A DNA stretch of 9,572 nt from Anaerolineae bacterium (GTDB lineage: Bacteria > Chloroflexota > Anaerolineae > UBA1429): contig JAFGLK010000008.1 in assembly GCA_016928125.1 (NCBI GenBank), positions 1 through 9,572 of the forward strand, given 5' to 3'. This document shows, piece by piece, positions 1 to 9,572 of the stretch. Below the pieces are notes generated by a model, which was given only the letters and a program-made list of their open reading frames with translations, was not told where the DNA came from and made no database searches. The stretch's first letter is position 1, and the number at the start of each line of letters is the position of its first letter. Made by a program: the position numbers and the translations under genes.

Positions 1-527
1 GAGTCGGCCCGCATGTGAAAGCGGCCCCACTGGGGCACGCCGCGCCGTCGCAGCGCCGAGGTCTCGGCATAGTAGACCTCGCCCAGACGCCCCTCGTCGG
101 TCCATTCCTTCGCCGCCTGGATCTCGGCGGAGTAGCGCCCCGTCTGCACGATCATCAAGAGGCGCCCGGTCCGTCGCGCCGCGGCGAACATGGCCTGCGC
201 ATCGGCATAGGCCGCGGCCGCGGGCTTTTCGCAGAGCACATCAGCGCCCGACTCCAACGCAGCGATGGTGATCTCGGCGTGCGACGTGTTGGGCGTGGTG
301 ACCACAGCCAGATCGGGCTGCAGATCGGCCAACATCGCCCGCCACGAGGTATAGGCTTGGGGGATGCCGTGGCGTTCGGCGGTGGCGGCCACACGGGCCG
401 GGTCGCGGCTCGACACGCCCACGATCTCCACCTCGTCGGCCAGGTTCCTGAAAGCCGGGATGTGGCCTGCATTGGCGATCATGCCCGCGCCGATCACAAC
501 AATCCTCAGCTTTGCGCTCTCGGTCAT
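1..527 (-). CDS. Gfo/Idh/MocA-family oxidoreductase, C-terminus cut by window edge
   Basis: NAD(P)-dependent oxidoreductase of the Gfo/Idh/MocA family, which usually oxidises or reduces hydroxyls of sugars, inositols or related polyols in the cytoplasm. About 175 N-terminal residues are visible. The Rossmann nucleotide-binding turn VIGAGMIA lies at residues 11-18, TPN-TSH at 78-83, and the family's Glu-Lys-Pro motif at 100-102 (CEKP). A stretch YYAETSALRRRGVP (152-165) resembles the neighbouring oxidoreductase. The C-terminal substrate domain, with the catalytic Asp/His, lies beyond the window. The ATG is preceded by a strong GGAGGAG (positions 532-538, minus strand), which settles the start. 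It sits 30 nt downstream of the other Gfo/Idh gene and is almost certainly co-transcribed with it. Family assignment is firm; the substrate cannot be read from sequence. Confidence 0.92.
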   Translation of the reverse strand, partial: MTESAKLRIVVIGAGMIANAGHIPAFRNLADEVEIVGVSSRDPARVAATAERHGIPQAYTSWRAMLADLQPDLAVVTTPNTSHAEITIAALESGADVLCEKPAAAAYADAQAMFAAARRTGRLLMIVQTGRYSAEIQAAKEWTDEGRLGEVYYAETSALRRRGVPQWGRFHMRAD

Positions 528-557
528 GTTGCTCCTCCGCGATCTATGCACGACGCC

Positions 558-1676
558 TCAGTCTGGCTGGACCGTGCGGCCAAGACCCGGCTCCGCCGCC
601 GCGATTTCCTCTGCCGTGACCTCGCGGCCCAGGGCGCCCGAGACGTAGATGCCCTCAGTGATGAACGCGGTGTTCAGCGCGATGCCCGCCGTGTCGAGCA
701 GGGGCACGCGCCCGAGTTGCGCGCCGATCCAATGGCGCTGTGACTCGGTGTAGTAGATGGCCGTCGGGTCGCACTGGCTCCAGCGCCACTCGGCGCGCTT
801 GGTGTCAAAGGTAGCATCCATCTCCATGTCGCCCAGGGTGGTGAAATAGGTCAGCGGCTGCACCTTCACGCCGCCCTTGCTGCCATAGACATAGCTGGCC
901 GCCGGATCGTCGCCATGGATCGCCCAGGCCTCCTCCATGTAGAACACGATTCCCCCGGCCAGACGCACGAACCCCATGCCGAACTCTTCCACGTCATAGC
1001 CGCTGCTCTCGCGTCGGTCGGGGTACATATTGTCGAAGAGCTTCTGGAAGGTGGCCCCCGATACGCTCACCAGCTCGGGGTTGCCGAGCAGATAGAGCAT
1101 CTGCGACAGATGGTAGACCGCCACGTCGAGCATGGCGCCGCCACCTGAGGTGCGGGTGTTCACAAAGGCGTTGGTGCCATAGCCATCGACGAACGGGCGC
1201 CCGCGCCGCCGATAGTGGGTCGACTTGGCGTAATAGAGCTCGCCCAGGTGCCCCTCGTCGATCAGGCGCTTGGCCCCGCGCGTGTCAGCGGTGTAGATCT
1301 GGGCGAGTTGTACGTGCAGCTTCCTGCCCAAGGCCTGGGCCGTGTCGTACATCTCTTTGGCCTCGCGGTAGGTCCACGACATGGGCTTTTCCACATAGAC
1401 GTGCTTGCCCGCCTGCAGCGCGTCGATCGTCACTGACTTGTGCAGCCGATTGTGCAGGATGATATCCACCGAATCGATGTCGTCGCGGGCCAGTAGATCG
1501 TGGTAATTCGTATACACATGCGGCACGCCGTACTGCTGCGCGACGGCCTGCCCCACCTCCTCGCGCAGATCCGCCACGGCCACGAGCTCGGCCTCGGGGA
1601 TCTCGCTGTAGCGTTGCACATGGCGCTGTCCTTGCTGTCCCACCCCGATGACGCCCACACGGATTCTGTCTGTCAC
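558..1676 (-). CDS. Gfo/Idh/MocA-family oxidoreductase (complete, GTG start)
   Basis: NAD(P)-dependent sugar/polyol oxidoreductase, 372 aa, a normal length for the family. The N-terminal Rossmann domain begins with VGVIGVGQQGQRH (residues 7-19). The cofactor/catalytic Glu-Lys-Pro is at 96-98. The second domain carries the usual glycine-rich Asp/His segment SGGGAMLDVAVYHL (177-190), giving D184 and H189 as likely catalytic residues. The start is GTG, preceded by AAGGAGGA (1685-1692, minus strand) at 8 nt spacing. It is the first gene of a minus-strand pair, 30 nt ahead of a second member of the same family. Both proteins share a Y-Y-A-x-S/T segment followed by RRRG after the Rossmann domain (148-159 here), so they may be old duplicates with different substrates, or partners. 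It is transcribed away from the URO-D-like gene across a 219-nt control region. Substrate unknown. Confidence 0.95.
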   Translation of the reverse strand: MTDRIRVGVIGVGQQGQRHVQRYSEIPEAELVAVADLREEVGQAVAQQYGVPHVYTNYHDLLARDDIDSVDIILHNRLHKSVTIDALQAGKHVYVEKPMSWTYREAKEMYDTAQALGRKLHVQLAQIYTADTRGAKRLIDEGHLGELYYAKSTHYRRRGRPFVDGYGTNAFVNTRTSGGGAMLDVAVYHLSQMLYLLGNPELVSVSGATFQKLFDNMYPDRRESSGYDVEEFGMGFVRLAGGIVFYMEEAWAIHGDDPAASYVYGSKGGVKVQPLTYFTTLGDMEMDATFDTKRAEWRWSQCDPTAIYYTESQRHWIGAQLGRVPLLDTAGIALNTAFITEGIYVSGALGREVTAEEIAAAEPGLGRTVQPD

Positions 1677-4273: not shown

Positions 4274-4329
4274 TGTGTATCTCCTTTTCTGTATTGGATG
4301 GCCTTGTTGGAGCCGAGGCCCCGAAAGGC

Positions 4330-4357
4330 ATGCTACCCCATCGCGCGAGATTGACAG
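4330..4357 (-). promoter_or_regulatory. Candidate promoter for the VOC gene
   Basis: On the minus strand, CTGTCA (4357-4352) and TAGCAT (4335-4330) are 16 nt apart, each matching consensus at 4 of 6 positions. Transcription would begin near 4323, about 50 nt before the GTG. The -35 occupies the same bases as the -35 of the opposing promoter. Pattern call only. Confidence 0.35.
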
Positions 4358-4379
4358 ACGTCTCTCATGGAACGAGAAT
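4351..4379 (+). promoter_or_regulatory. Candidate promoter for the SCP-2-like gene
   Basis: A perfect TTGACA (4351-4356) is followed after exactly 17 nt by GAGAAT (4374-4379), which matches the -10 consensus at 4 of 6. The start site would be near 4386, giving a leader of roughly 37 nt with the AGGAGG ribosome site. An 8-bp palindrome AGACGTCT (4356-4363) begins at the last base of the -35 and extends into the spacer; it could be an operator or chance. Confidence 0.5.
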
Positions 4380-4422
4380 CGACGCAGAGATCTATCTGTT
4401 CAGAAGCCAGGAGGCGAGTACC

Positions 4423-4806
4423 ATGTATGCCACACCGCAAGCCCTTTACGCCACTCTGGACCGCATGGTCGAGCGCCTGCAGGCCAACGAGGCTTTTGGG
4501 AAGCGCATCGCCAACGCCAACGTCTCAGTGGCGTTCGAGCTGCCCGACCTGGAGGCCGAGTACACCCTGACCCTACACCAGGGCCAGATCAGCGGCGCCC
4601 CGGGCGGCGCAGATGCGGCCCCTCTGGTCGTGACGCTCCCGGTCGTCGTGCTGGACGAACTGCTCTCGGGCGCCACGTCAGGCGAATCGCTCTACTATGC
4701 AGGTAAGCTCCGCTTCCGGGGCGACGACTGGGTCGCCGAGAGCGCTGCCTACTATGTCTATGCCATGATCGAGGACTATCGGGCCGCCCGCGCCGAGGCC
4801 AACTAG
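4423..4806 (+). CDS. Small SCP-2 sterol-carrier-like domain protein
   Basis: A 127-aa stand-alone protein that reads like an SCP-2 domain, a fold with a hydrophobic tunnel that binds lipids, fatty-acyl groups or other apolar ligands. It opens with a helix (LYATLDRMVERLQANEAF, 8-25). Alternating strands follow (VSVAFEL at 34-40; EYTLTLHQGQISG at 46-58; APLVVTLPVVVLDELLSG at 66-83). The usual end is seen in AGKLRFRGDDW (93-103) before a C-terminal helix. No signal peptide or membrane segment is visible, so it should be cytoplasmic. The ATG follows AGGAGG (4409-4414) at 8 nt. Its TAG overlaps the opposing amidohydrolase stop by the 4-bp palindrome CTAG (4803-4806). The family call rests on overall pattern, not catalytic residues, so it is less certain than its neighbours. 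The ligand is unknown. Confidence 0.7.
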   Translation: MYATPQALYATLDRMVERLQANEAFGKRIANANVSVAFELPDLEAEYTLTLHQGQISGAPGGADAAPLVVTLPVVVLDELLSGATSGESLYYAGKLRFRGDDWVAESAAYYVYAMIEDYRAARAEAN

Positions 4807-5609
4807 ATCCGACGGCGGCTCTCCAGCAGGCGTAGGGCATTCTCGCGCAGGATGGCGCGGCGCGCGTCGTCGCTGATGTGGGCCATCACCAGGCAGCCGA
4901 TGGCATAGTGCGGGTCGAACCAGGGCAGATCGCAGCCAAACACGATCTTGTGCGCCCCGACTCGCGCCACCATCTCCTCGATTACCCCGTTCACGGCATA
5001 GGCCGCGGTCAGCTCCAGGTAGACGTTGGCATGTTCGCGAGCGACCTGTATGCACTCGGCGAACTGGCCGTGCCCCGAGTGTCCCGCCAGGAAGACCGCC
5101 TCCGGGTAGCGCTCGGCCACCTGCGCCAGGAGCTCGGGCCGATCGTAGGCCGACCCACCCCAGGTGTGCGTGAGCACCAGCAGTTGGCGCGAGGCCGCGA
5201 ACTCCAGCGCCGGCCGATAGAGATCGCCAGTGATCGGATACTCGTGGTGGCTCGGATGGAACTTGAGCCCCACGTAGGTCGGCTGGCTCTCATAGCCCTC
5301 CAATTGCTGTCGGCCCTCCTTGGGGTAGTGAGGGTTGTAGGTCAGGTAGGCGTACCATCGCCCGGGATACGCGGCGGTCACCTGGGCCATCTCGGCGTTG
5401 CCCAGCACCATGTCACGCAGGGCGGTGTGTCCCGCTGAGACGATCGTCTCGACCCCGCAGCGATCCATGGTCGCGATCATCGCCTCGGGCGTGTGATTGG
5501 GCATGTAAATGCCGGCATAGTGCCCATAGTGGGCATGCAGATCGATGACGCGACAACTCTCGCAGCGACCCGTCTCCAGGTACTCCAACGCGATGGGCGA
5601 GTCGATCAT
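4803..5609 (-). CDS. Metal-dependent amidohydrolase-family protein (active site intact)
   Basis: A 268-aa TIM-barrel hydrolase or decarboxylase of the amidohydrolase superfamily (amidohydrolase 2 / ACMSD-like group). The metal-site residues are all present: H25 and H27 in IDLHAH (22-27), H148 in LTHTWGG (146-152), H177 in AGHSGHG (175-181) and the proton-shuttling D227 in FGCDLPW (224-230). K116 in GLKFHP (114-119) sits on an inner strand. An N-terminal extension of about 20 residues includes a CxxC pair (C15, C18) just before the metal motif, which is unusual for this group. The ATG lies inside the stop of the preceding gene (ATGA overlap, 5606-5609), with GGAGG 10 nt upstream, so translation is coupled. 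The partner gene encodes the same fold without the metal ligands. It could hydrolyse lactones or amides, or decarboxylate aromatic or keto acids; the substrate is not evident. Confidence 0.9.
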   Translation of the reverse strand: MIDSPIALEYLETGRCESCRVIDLHAHYGHYAGIYMPNHTPEAMIATMDRCGVETIVSAGHTALRDMVLGNAEMAQVTAAYPGRWYAYLTYNPHYPKEGRQQLEGYESQPTYVGLKFHPSHHEYPITGDLYRPALEFAASRQLLVLTHTWGGSAYDRPELLAQVAERYPEAVFLAGHSGHGQFAECIQVAREHANVYLELTAAYAVNGVIEEMVARVGAHKIVFGCDLPWFDPHYAIGCLVMAHISDDARRAILRENALRLLESRRRI

Positions 5610-6376
5610 AGTTGCACCCCCTCCAGCAGGCGACGCAGGTTGCCGCCGGCGATGGACCCGCGCGCCTGGTCGCTCATCTCAGCCCGCGCCACCATCAGCC
5701 TCGGCCCGCCCATGGCGTTCTGCGGGTAGTTGCTGCCATACAGCAGCCGCTCGGGGCCATAGCGCGCCACCAGCTCGGCCAGGCCGCCCTCCAGCTCGTA
5801 GCGCGAGATGTCCAGGTGAAAGCCGGGGTAGCGCTCCAACAACGGTCGGAAAAGGCGATCCTCGCCCCAAGCCCCCTGCGCCGCCAGGACCATGAGCAGA
5901 TCAGGATACTCGGCCAACAGCTCGGCCAAGAGGTAATAGGTGTCAGCAGGTCGCGGGCCGCCTGCCTTGCGCGGGATAAAGAGCGGGATGCGACGCTCGC
6001 TCACCTCGTCCAGAAACGCGCCAAAAGTGAGCCGGTTGAGCATGTAGCGATGCTCCTCGGGAAAGGCCCACAGGGCGCGCACTTCTGCCTGGGCCATCGC
6101 ATCAAAGAAGCGCCCCGGGTCGAGCTCCCCGGTCTGGGGCGGCAGAATGGCCCACGAGCCCAGCAGGCGCGGGTGGCCGGCGATCAGCTCGCTCAGGATG
6201 CGATTGCCCACCACGGGCGACTGGGCGCTCATCAGCTCGTGGCGCACCAGGGCCTTCTCCACGCCGACCCAGTCCAGCTCAGGCAGCAGCTCGCCAGGGT
6301 TGCGGCACGGTCGAAAAATCCCGGTCTGGGGTCGCCCCAGGCACACATTGCAGTCCCAATAGGCGATGTCTGGCAT
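5606..6376 (-). CDS. Amidohydrolase-fold protein lacking the metal ligands (probable pseudoenzyme)
   Basis: A 256-aa protein with the strand order and spacing of the amidohydrolase barrel but without its metal site. The usual D-x-H-x-H is replaced by DCNVC (residues 8-12). The strand that normally ends in His reads IPLFIPRK (130-137), the AGHSG position reads LAAQGAWG (164-171), and the catalytic GSD reads GSNYP (214-218). All expected His and Asp ligands are therefore missing although the framework is kept, so it is unlikely to be a standard metal hydrolase. Related D-x-N-x-x-x-G proteins occur widely as metal-less amidohydrolase relatives. Its TGA overlaps the ATG of the intact amidohydrolase downstream, which suggests a paired or heteromeric function. 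The start is taken as ATG 6376, because AGGGAG (6385-6390) lies 8 nt upstream; the GTG at 6385 would sit directly against that site. Confidence 0.85.
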   Translation of the reverse strand: MPDIAYWDCNVCLGRPQTGIFRPCRNPGELLPELDWVGVEKALVRHELMSAQSPVVGNRILSELIAGHPRLLGSWAILPPQTGELDPGRFFDAMAQAEVRALWAFPEEHRYMLNRLTFGAFLDEVSERRIPLFIPRKAGGPRPADTYYLLAELLAEYPDLLMVLAAQGAWGEDRLFRPLLERYPGFHLDISRYELEGGLAELVARYGPERLLYGSNYPQNAMGGPRLMVARAEMSDQARGSIAGGNLRRLLEGVQL

Positions 6377-6384
6377 ATCACGCA

Positions 6385-6390
6385 CTCCCT
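6385..6390 (-). promoter_or_regulatory. Ribosome binding site that fixes the metal-less amidohydrolase start
   Basis: AGGGAG on the minus strand lies 8 nt before ATG 6376. It overlaps the first base of the in-frame GTG at 6385, which therefore cannot use it. This shortens the protein by three residues relative to the longest reading. Confidence 0.6.
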
Positions 6391-6463: not shown

Positions 6464-7231
6464 CTAGAGCGTCAAGACCTCGGGCTCGCCATCGGTGATG
6501 GCGACGGTGTGCTCAAAATGAGCGCACAGGCCGCCATCCTGCGTGGCCACCGTCCAACGGTCGGCCTTCACAAACAGGATCGGCTCGTTCACGGTCACCA
6601 TCGGCTCCAGAGCGAAGGTCATGCCGGCCTTGAGCGGCACGCCACGATCGCGCTTGCCCCAATTGAGGATCTGCGGATCCTCGTGCATGTCGCGCCCCAC
6701 GCCGTGCCCCGTGTATTCGCGTACCACCTGGTAGCCCTGCGACTCGACCCACTCTTGGATGGTGGCGGAGATGTCGCCCACGCGGTTGCCCACTCGGCAG
6801 GCTTCGATGGCCAGTTGCAGTGCGGTCTCAGTCACTTGGATCAGCCGCCGCGCTTCGTGCGAGATGGGGCCCACGGGCACGGTAATGGCTGAATCGCCGA
6901 CAAAGCCCTCCCAGACCGTTCCACAGTCCACGCTGAGAATGTCGCCTTCGCGCAGGCGGCGCCGGCTTGGCAGGCCGTGCACCAATTCATCGTTGATGCT
7001 GGCGTTGATCGTCGCGGGGTAGGGATACTCTGGGAACGAGCGATTGGGATAGCCCAGAAAGGCCGGCTCGGCAGCGTGTGAATGGAGGACATCCCGGGCA
7101 ACGCGATCGAGCGCGCGCGTGGTGACGCCGGGGCGCACGGCCTGGCTCACCGCCTCCAGGGCCAGCGCGTTGATGTGCCCGGCCCGGCGCATGATCTCGA
7201 TCTCATCTTTGGATTTGAGGATGATGCCCAC
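6464..7231 (-). CDS. map: Methionine aminopeptidase, type I
   Basis: Removes the initiator methionine from new proteins; a cytoplasmic dinuclear metallopeptidase and usually essential. At 255 aa it is a single pita-bread catalytic domain without N-terminal extension, as expected for bacterial type Ia. Metal ligands are D102 (SVDCG, 100-104), D113 (VGDSA), H176 (TGHGVG, 174-179), E209 (ALEP, 207-210) and E240 (FEHT, 239-242). Each is offset by five from the E. coli numbering. The substrate-binding H85 is in ELVHGLP (82-88). The start is GTG with GAGG (7239-7242, minus strand) at 7 nt. In many bacteria map sits in the ribosomal-protein cluster beside adk, secY or infA. Here it lies between an uncharacterised Cys-rich protein and the amidohydrolase pair, so it is either the relocated main copy or a second copy. 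It probably shares the upstream gene's promoter, since no good one is seen in the 111-nt gap before it. Confidence 0.97.
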   Translation of the reverse strand: MGIILKSKDEIEIMRRAGHINALALEAVSQAVRPGVTTRALDRVARDVLHSHAAEPAFLGYPNRSFPEYPYPATINASINDELVHGLPSRRRLREGDILSVDCGTVWEGFVGDSAITVPVGPISHEARRLIQVTETALQLAIEACRVGNRVGDISATIQEWVESQGYQVVREYTGHGVGRDMHEDPQILNWGKRDRGVPLKAGMTFALEPMVTVNEPILFVKADRWTVATQDGGLCAHFEHTVAITDGEPEVLTL

Positions 7232-9189: not shown

Positions 9190-9572
9190 ATGAAGATCAC
9201 CAAGACCGACATCTGGACCGTGGTTGTGCCGACCATCACCGAACGCGTGCAGTCGCCTTGCTTTGGGCCATCGGGTTGGGATCTGGTACCCAAGCACATC
9301 ATCCGCCTGCATACCGATGAGGGCCTCTATGGGCTGGGCGAGAGCGGGCGCGGCGTGCCTCGCGAGAATGTGCAGGCGCTTGCCGATGCTCTGGTGGGTG
9401 TGGATCCTAGGGAGCTGGCGCTGCAACACCTGCCTGCCGCATTGGGGCGCCTCGATGACCGGCCGGCGGAATCGGTGCCGGGCCGGTGGTGGGAGACGGC
9501 CGCGGGAGGCCCTGGCATGAGCGGCTACGAGGCCATCGAGATGGCGATCCTGGACCTGCTGGGCAAGTTCTA
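9190..9572 (+). CDS. Enolase-superfamily protein (mandelate racemase/muconate lactonizing group), C-terminus cut by window edge
   Basis: About 127 residues of the N-terminal capping domain are visible. Enzymes of this superfamily abstract a proton alpha to a carboxylate with Mg2+, most often as sugar-acid dehydratases, racemases or lactonizing enzymes. The start MKITKTDIWTVVVP (1-14), the strand pair IIRLHTDEGLYGLGES (38-53) and the helix YEAIEMAILDLLGKF at the end of the visible part are the expected landmarks. The catalytic barrel, with its Lys, Asp/Glu metal ligands and His, lies beyond the window, so activity cannot be assigned. The ATG follows AGGAGG (9180-9185) at 4 nt, a little short. 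An in-frame ATG at 9127 would add 21 residues but abuts GGAGGGAG, and the family's N-terminus favours 9190. It is downstream of the glycosyltransferase on the same strand. Confidence 0.88.
   Translation, partial: MKITKTDIWTVVVPTITERVQSPCFGPSGWDLVPKHIIRLHTDEGLYGLGESGRGVPRENVQALADALVGVDPRELALQHLPAALGRLDDRPAESVPGRWWETAAGGPGMSGYEAIEMAILDLLGKF

Follow-up and report, generated by a model that had tools for sequence, protein, structure and literature searches.

Two neighbouring genes of the PF04909 family, here called A and B, probably encode the two subunits of one heteromeric amidohydrolase, in which B would be the catalytic subunit and A a metal-free pseudoenzyme; we put the probability of this reading at about 0.75. 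The genes lie in a window of 9,572 nucleotides, by which we mean the whole stretch of DNA that was analysed. B would work through its metal site, and A, either synthesised together with B through translational coupling or forming one chain with it, would be needed for the folding, the assembly or the work of B; an arginine conserved in A (R177) may complete the active site of B across the dimer interface, as the second chain does in ACMSD. We infer a physical heteromer with its chains in a 1:1 ratio, and the coupling, the natural fusions and the invariant metal site of B argue that B would be its catalyst and A the partner chain. Annotation treats PF04909 proteins, A included, singly and calls them amidohydrolases or metal-dependent hydrolases. 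Should B depend on A as an obligate partner, assays of B by itself might show no activity, and the present names of A would be misleading.

Gene A, gene B and their junction

The pair and its signals read as follows:
5606..6376, minus strand: gene A, a metal-less PF04909 protein with the motif D-C-N-V-C, first gene of the coupled pair
4803..5609, minus strand: gene B, a PF04909 protein with the ligands H25, H27, K116, H148, H177 and D227 all present
5606..5609, minus strand: ATGA overlap of the A stop and the B start, read from the sequence
5617..5624, minus strand: GGAGGGGG, Shine-Dalgarno-like, within the 3' end of A and 7 nt ahead of the B ATG
6385..6390, minus strand: AGGGAG, Shine-Dalgarno-like, 8 nt ahead of the A ATG

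The two genes stand head to tail, both on the minus strand, at coordinates given beforehand. An earlier note on this DNA had claimed that they overlap by ATGA at 5606-5609, and this was borne out: the stop codon of A is TGA at 5606-5608, the start codon of B is ATG at 5607-5609, and ATGA at 5606-5609 is common to both. The likely start of A is the ATG at 6374-6376, which is preceded by AGGGAG and gives a protein of 256 aa; the longest mechanical open reading frame of A opens at GTG 6383-6385 (259 aa), and residues of A are numbered here from that GTG, with ATG-based numbers lower by 3. B is 268 aa long.

Each protein matched PF04909 (Amidohydro_2) above the curated cut-off of 26.4 bits (36.1 bits for A and 88.3 bits for B), and an NCBIfam search returned no family for A and none for B. 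AlphaFold2 gave confident single-chain models (pLDDT 93.0 and pTM 0.92 for A; pLDDT 95.4 and pTM 0.93 for B), and the best Foldseek matches of both were to solved PF04909 members, with probability 1.00. The match to 3irs was not a close one (TM normalised by query length, 0.69 with A and 0.78 with B).

Pairing and natural fusions across genomes

Scanning the species genome collection with the A alignment gave 34 loci, which are titled Chloroflexi, Armatimonadota and Zipacnadia, WS1, Planctomycetota, Latescibacteria, Bacillota, Lentisphaerae, Thioalkalivibrio and a Bathyarchaeota archaeon; organism names are record titles throughout, and genome bins may be misassigned. B lies directly 3' of A in 32 of the 34 loci, and in the other two (L028 and L033, one of them the Lentisphaerae locus) the contig ends inside A. 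At 31 of the 32 junctions the A stop overlaps an in-frame start by 4 nt (ATGA at 21, GTGA at 10), these starts being possible rather than proven because our script took the in-frame start nearest the A stop; the sole junction without the overlap, in L018, has a gap of 138 nt between A and B. Selection for coupled synthesis of the two proteins in equal amounts would preserve a junction as constant as this.

The same 34 genomes were searched with A and B profiles and 60 places were then read, together with 20 more from the phylum sample described below (114 loci). Pairing in the first 34 loci and in 55 of the next 60 is conditional on A, because these were picked by A matches; the remaining 5 of the 60 were picked from B matches, and counts over the 114 loci do not describe a random sample, because the last 20 comprise 12 places whose neighbour was missing from the phylum-sample lists and 8 examples. 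Loci from one genome or from near-identical genomes (L031, L032) are not independent. Our call of 104 A and 108 B domains excludes domains of 200 or fewer aligned residues, and two partial A-like matches (G016:C169 and G016:C312) lie outside the 114 loci. The earlier note had named a metal-less protein occurring mostly alone as evidence that would speak against its proposal, and the opposite was seen, with B directly downstream of 94 of the 104 A domains; the ten without B downstream in the stretch read comprise one at a contig end (L033), four in another gene order (L087, L091, L092 and L093) and five that are unlinked. L091, L092 and L093 are three-gene sets in which two complete HxH amidohydrolases are followed by a metal-less one, and the ligand columns of the metal-less copy read N, N, R, A/E/T, A and H, so that live and dead copies are combined here in a different way.

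A second sample, chosen independently of A, consisted of 301 genomes taken evenly across the phylum to which G001 belongs (Chloroflexota, going by the L001 title), in each of which the best 8 candidates were scored at thresholds of E<=1e-40 for B-like and E<=1e-20 for A-like matches. B-like matches occurred in 22 and A-like matches in 23 of these genomes. The conserved adjacency that the earlier note had proposed to look for was present in this sample: for 35 of the 41 B-like matches, an A-like match precedes B on that strand at a distance of 0-283 nt, and one further B (G001:C79, which is L100) was found on reading to be paired with A. The remaining five B matches lie in G067, G111, G151, G190 and G254, each of which also has one unlinked A of one type (the unlinked loci are L097, L101, L102, L103 and L104; in G254, A and B are 6 kb apart on one contig). 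Co-occurrence of A and B is thus kept where linkage is lost, and the partnership of the unlinked copies is putative. From the size and spread of these adjacency counts we judge the pairing of A and B to be real.

Most of the further, more distant A-like matches immediately precede a B-like match, and in many cases the two form a single open frame, mostly 533 to 712 aa in length. Over the 114 loci, 25 of the 104 A domains stand in one open frame with B, A first. With one fusion as query we retrieved 130 proteins, and 116 of the 120 listed carry A then B, a count that favours fusions because the search admits only proteins of similar length; the other 4 of the 120 fall below the two-domain criterion. 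Named fusion homologues include Armatimonadota, Planctomycetota, Bacteroidota, Gemmatimonadota and Paenibacillus. When plasmid records were searched, A matched 1 record and a fusion matched 29, of which 3 were matched over most of the query, and a plasmid of the cultured haloarchaeon Halomontanus rarus (L115) carries an A-B fusion at 7983-9608. Right after it, at 9682-11370 on the plus strand, lies a second fusion of an active with a dead amidohydrolase domain in the reverse order, with an HxH domain first and an N-x-Y domain (a partial profile match) second. Natural A-B fusions would be single-chain versions of the complex and would make the passage from a homodimer to an enzyme with a pseudoenzyme directly testable, many lineages being available for comparison.

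Translationally coupled genes need not interact, and A and B might be plain operon partners whose adjacency was simply inherited. We consider this very improbable given the 25 single-frame fusions among 104 A domains, the reverse-order fusion on the haloarchaeal plasmid, the identical 4-nt overlap in loci whose titles span several bacterial phyla and one archaeon, and the co-occurrence of A and B even where they are unlinked. The earlier note had proposed a heteromer of an active enzyme and an inactive paralogue, the latter as scaffold, specificity subunit or regulator; adjacency, the repeated 4-nt overlap and the many natural fusions support the heteromer, and the three roles are not separable on this evidence.

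Metal site, conservation and descent

The ligand set of metal-dependent, possibly binuclear, hydrolases consists of an HxH pair on strand 1, a Lys on strand 4, a His on each of strands 5 and 6 and an Asp on strand 8. B has H25 and H27 (HxH, strand 1), K116 (strand 4), H148, H177 and D227; the earlier note had listed these residues correctly with the exception of K116, which it missed. Its reading of the replacements in A likewise held for Asn/Cys, Pro and Asn (N13 and C15 for HxH, P138 for H148 and N219 for D227), and W106 takes the place of K116. Opposite H177, where a Gln had been named, A has Q170 by the A1/A2 profiles or A169 by wider alignments, the register being uncertain by one and neither residue being His, and A of the window thus counts 0 of 6 ligands. 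On these residues, B has the six-ligand pattern of a metal-dependent amidohydrolase and A does not.

Over the 114 loci, B domains have six of six ligands in 105 of 108 cases and five in the other 3, whereas A domains have none in 65 of 104, one in 33, two in 6 and all six in no case; part of this contrast is built in because domains were labelled by the better-scoring profile, and gene order is unaffected by the labelling. Weighted conservation across 201 aligned B sequences is 100% for HxH and for K116, and the B ligands overall are at 92-100%. No alternative set of His, Asp or Cys residues that could replace the metal ligands is kept across the A clade, as judged from sequence. The A proteins of L026, L027, L029, L031 and L032 read Asp-Cys-His and so keep one of the two strand-1 His; they are possible intermediate stages of ligand loss. 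The loss of catalytic residues in A and their retention in B, with consistent co-occurrence, would fit a pseudoenzyme-enzyme heteromer.

A homologue search with A returned 480 proteins at E<=1e-10, the best 120 of which reach down to 47% identity, and our counts for the close A family refer to these 120 listed of the 480, the window's own protein included. Named members among the 120 are Chloroflexi and Armatimonadota, and the nearest named sequences to A come from Anaerolineae and other Chloroflexi, which makes this phylum the most likely origin of the window. Decay of a paralogue was ruled out as an account of A because its own signature is conserved, with Asp-Cys-Asn kept in 110 of the 120 listed homologues. 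All 120 share P82, E87, W106, G174, D176, R177 and Y196, while T85 is kept in 119, and H112 and E197 in 118 each. The earlier note's picture of a chain with none of the metal residues does not carry over to the relatives of A, among which the loss is not total: of the 120 listed homologues (window protein P0003 included), 90 have His at column 170 and 17 have Gln there. Strong selection acts on A, and its object is something other than a metal site.

Invariants of this kind (the seven residues kept in 120 of 120) would also suit a metal-free enzyme, and A might, as the earlier note had also allowed, catalyse a reaction of its own, with A and B performing two linked steps and the fusions being bifunctional. 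Coupled, and even fused, genes can just equalise successive pathway steps with no shared active site, a point against our preferred reading. We nevertheless regard an enzymatic A as unlikely, since across the wider A clade several of the residues concerned fall, in weighted terms, to between 19% and 58% (H112 58%, Y196 50%, D176 47%, W106 22%, E197 19%), as against 92-100% for the B ligands, an argument that is not decisive because R177 (94%), P82 (88%) and E87 (79%) are kept. In its favour, some characterised PF04909 enzymes are reported to be free of a cofactor (PMC10811679).

When 53 A and 53 B domains were placed in one tree, all A domains fell on one side and all B domains on the other side of a single branch (SH-aLRT 99), which makes the ligand loss in A look old; the tree comes from a quick method and has long branches, and the root and the direction of divergence are our own reading of it because it has no outgroup. 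Distances among A and among B domains correlate with an r of 0.79, a value that none of 2000 permutations reached, as is partly expected from the shared descent of linked genes. One old duplication, loss of the metal site in one copy and co-inheritance thereafter is the simplest account of this history.

R177, known heteromers and gene neighbourhood

Of the polar residues in the 20 A columns that are best conserved across the clade, R177 alone has no similar counterpart in B, which has mostly Glu or Asp there; D11, N61, N249 and R213 of A are matched in B by an identical or similar residue. In the single-chain fold of A, R177 lies where strand 6 gives way to the following helix. All 33 A domains from the first loci have Arg in this column, one of the two patterns used in that search having itself contained the Arg, and 61 of 71 A domains elsewhere have it; four further A domains in plasmid records have R in two, E in one (haloarchaeal) and G in one. 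An Arg also occurs at +4 to +12 after the strand-6 His in 50 of 108 B domains, so the division of labour between A and B is not clean. We found it unconvincing that the Arg had moved to B where A lacks R177 (the matching B column holds R or K in 2 of 6 such pairs versus 5 of 88).

PMC11650718 and PMC9021598 describe ACMSD as a homodimer. Its Arg239 (Arg235 in the human enzyme) follows His228 (His224 in the human enzyme) by 11 residues and reaches into the active site of the neighbouring subunit; loss of this Arg abolishes activity, and the enzyme is inactive as a monomer because the neighbouring subunit donates it. By Foldseek its fold is similar to those of A and B, and the B profile matches ACMSD over parts of the chain only; it differs in that both chains of the homodimer hold metal, whereas here the A chain has lost the metal site. 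The offset differs too, R177 standing 7 residues after column 170 and Arg239 standing 11 after His228. We take His228 to be at the end of strand 6. The likeness of R177 to Arg239 is a resemblance of place whose exact register is not settled, and it suggests that A may complete the active site of B. More tentatively, and as a possibility that we hold with some doubt, A and B might represent an old, widespread class of split amidohydrolases that arose when, following a single duplication, a once symmetric homodimer turned asymmetric; B would have kept the metal site, and A would have lost it and kept an R177 delivered across the interface, giving one complete active site from two barrels, coupled or fused.

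A could instead be a subunit of the heteromer that does not reach the B active site, acting as a scaffold or an allosteric sensor, an alternative that strikes us as conceivable but somewhat unlikely. The close A family has strictly conserved polar residues and no metal site, which would suit ligand sensing; weakly against this, the A-specific residue that is best conserved is an Arg directly following strand 6, to which we presumptively assign the element that reaches the partner site in ACMSD. A structural role has a precedent in AibH1H2, the 2-aminoisobutyric acid hydroxylase (PDB 8FUN), described in PMC10401708, PMC12141560 and PMC10811679 as a heteromer of two PF04909 chains from one operon. 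According to PMC12141560, AibH1 is thought to be structural and AibH2 catalytic, with a Mn/Fe site of D25, H27, H211, E265, D337, H340 and D342 in AibH2 and a metal in AibH1 also.

For our preferred reading, a catalytic B with a pseudoenzyme partner, AibH1H2 is the nearest described case, and a heteromer of two PF04909 chains as such is already known. In both systems two PF04909 chains are encoded together; AibH1H2 differs in being an oxygenase with metal in both chains, whereas B has HxH and A has no site. The AibH2 ligand set (D25, H27 and the D-H-D loop) is absent from B, in which H-x-H is 100% weighted over the 201 aligned sequences, and 8FUN was neither among the 47 distinct sequences matched by the B profile at E<=10 nor among the 22 matched by the A profile at E<=1. 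An inactive dihydroorotase chain is required for assembly of the Pseudomonas aspartate transcarbamylase complex (PMC4581275), where the partner is a transcarbamylase and not an active paralogue of the chain itself. PMC5201418 describes AdoMetDC-prozyme of Trypanosoma brucei, in which a dead paralogue activates its live partner through a heterodimer, in another enzyme family and by another mechanism, the relief of autoinhibition. A literature search, with most subscription papers outside its scope, found no report of a metal-less partner or tandem in PF04909.

Among 20 scanned neighbour representatives and the neighbour clusters, we found no third conserved gene that would name a pathway, and the commonest other neighbour family occurs at 6 of 34 loci. 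An M24 peptidase gene lies upstream of the A-B pair in the window (6464-7231, minus strand) and also upstream in L001, L002, L003, L004, L008 and L030, which are six of the 10 loci whose titles name Chloroflexi, Anaerolineae or Anaerolineales (identified by Pfam for L002 and by BLAST cluster for the other five). Neighbours at other loci are varied and include a DegT aminotransferase, an MFS or ABC transporter, GH4, a 2-hydroxyacid dehydrogenase, a radical SAM protein and porphobilinogen deaminase. In the window, an SCP2-domain open reading frame (4294-4806, plus strand) converges on B (4803-5609, minus strand), and their ends overlap by 4 nt. A Gfo/Idh/MocA oxidoreductase gene stands at 558-1676 (minus strand), and 3-551 (minus strand), cut by the window edge and adjoining it, is presumably a second one. 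What we take to be the start of a mandelate racemase/enolase-family gene, cut by the window end, lies at about 9190-9570 (plus strand), and the two fusions on the Halomontanus rarus plasmid lie near a mandelate racemase family gene.
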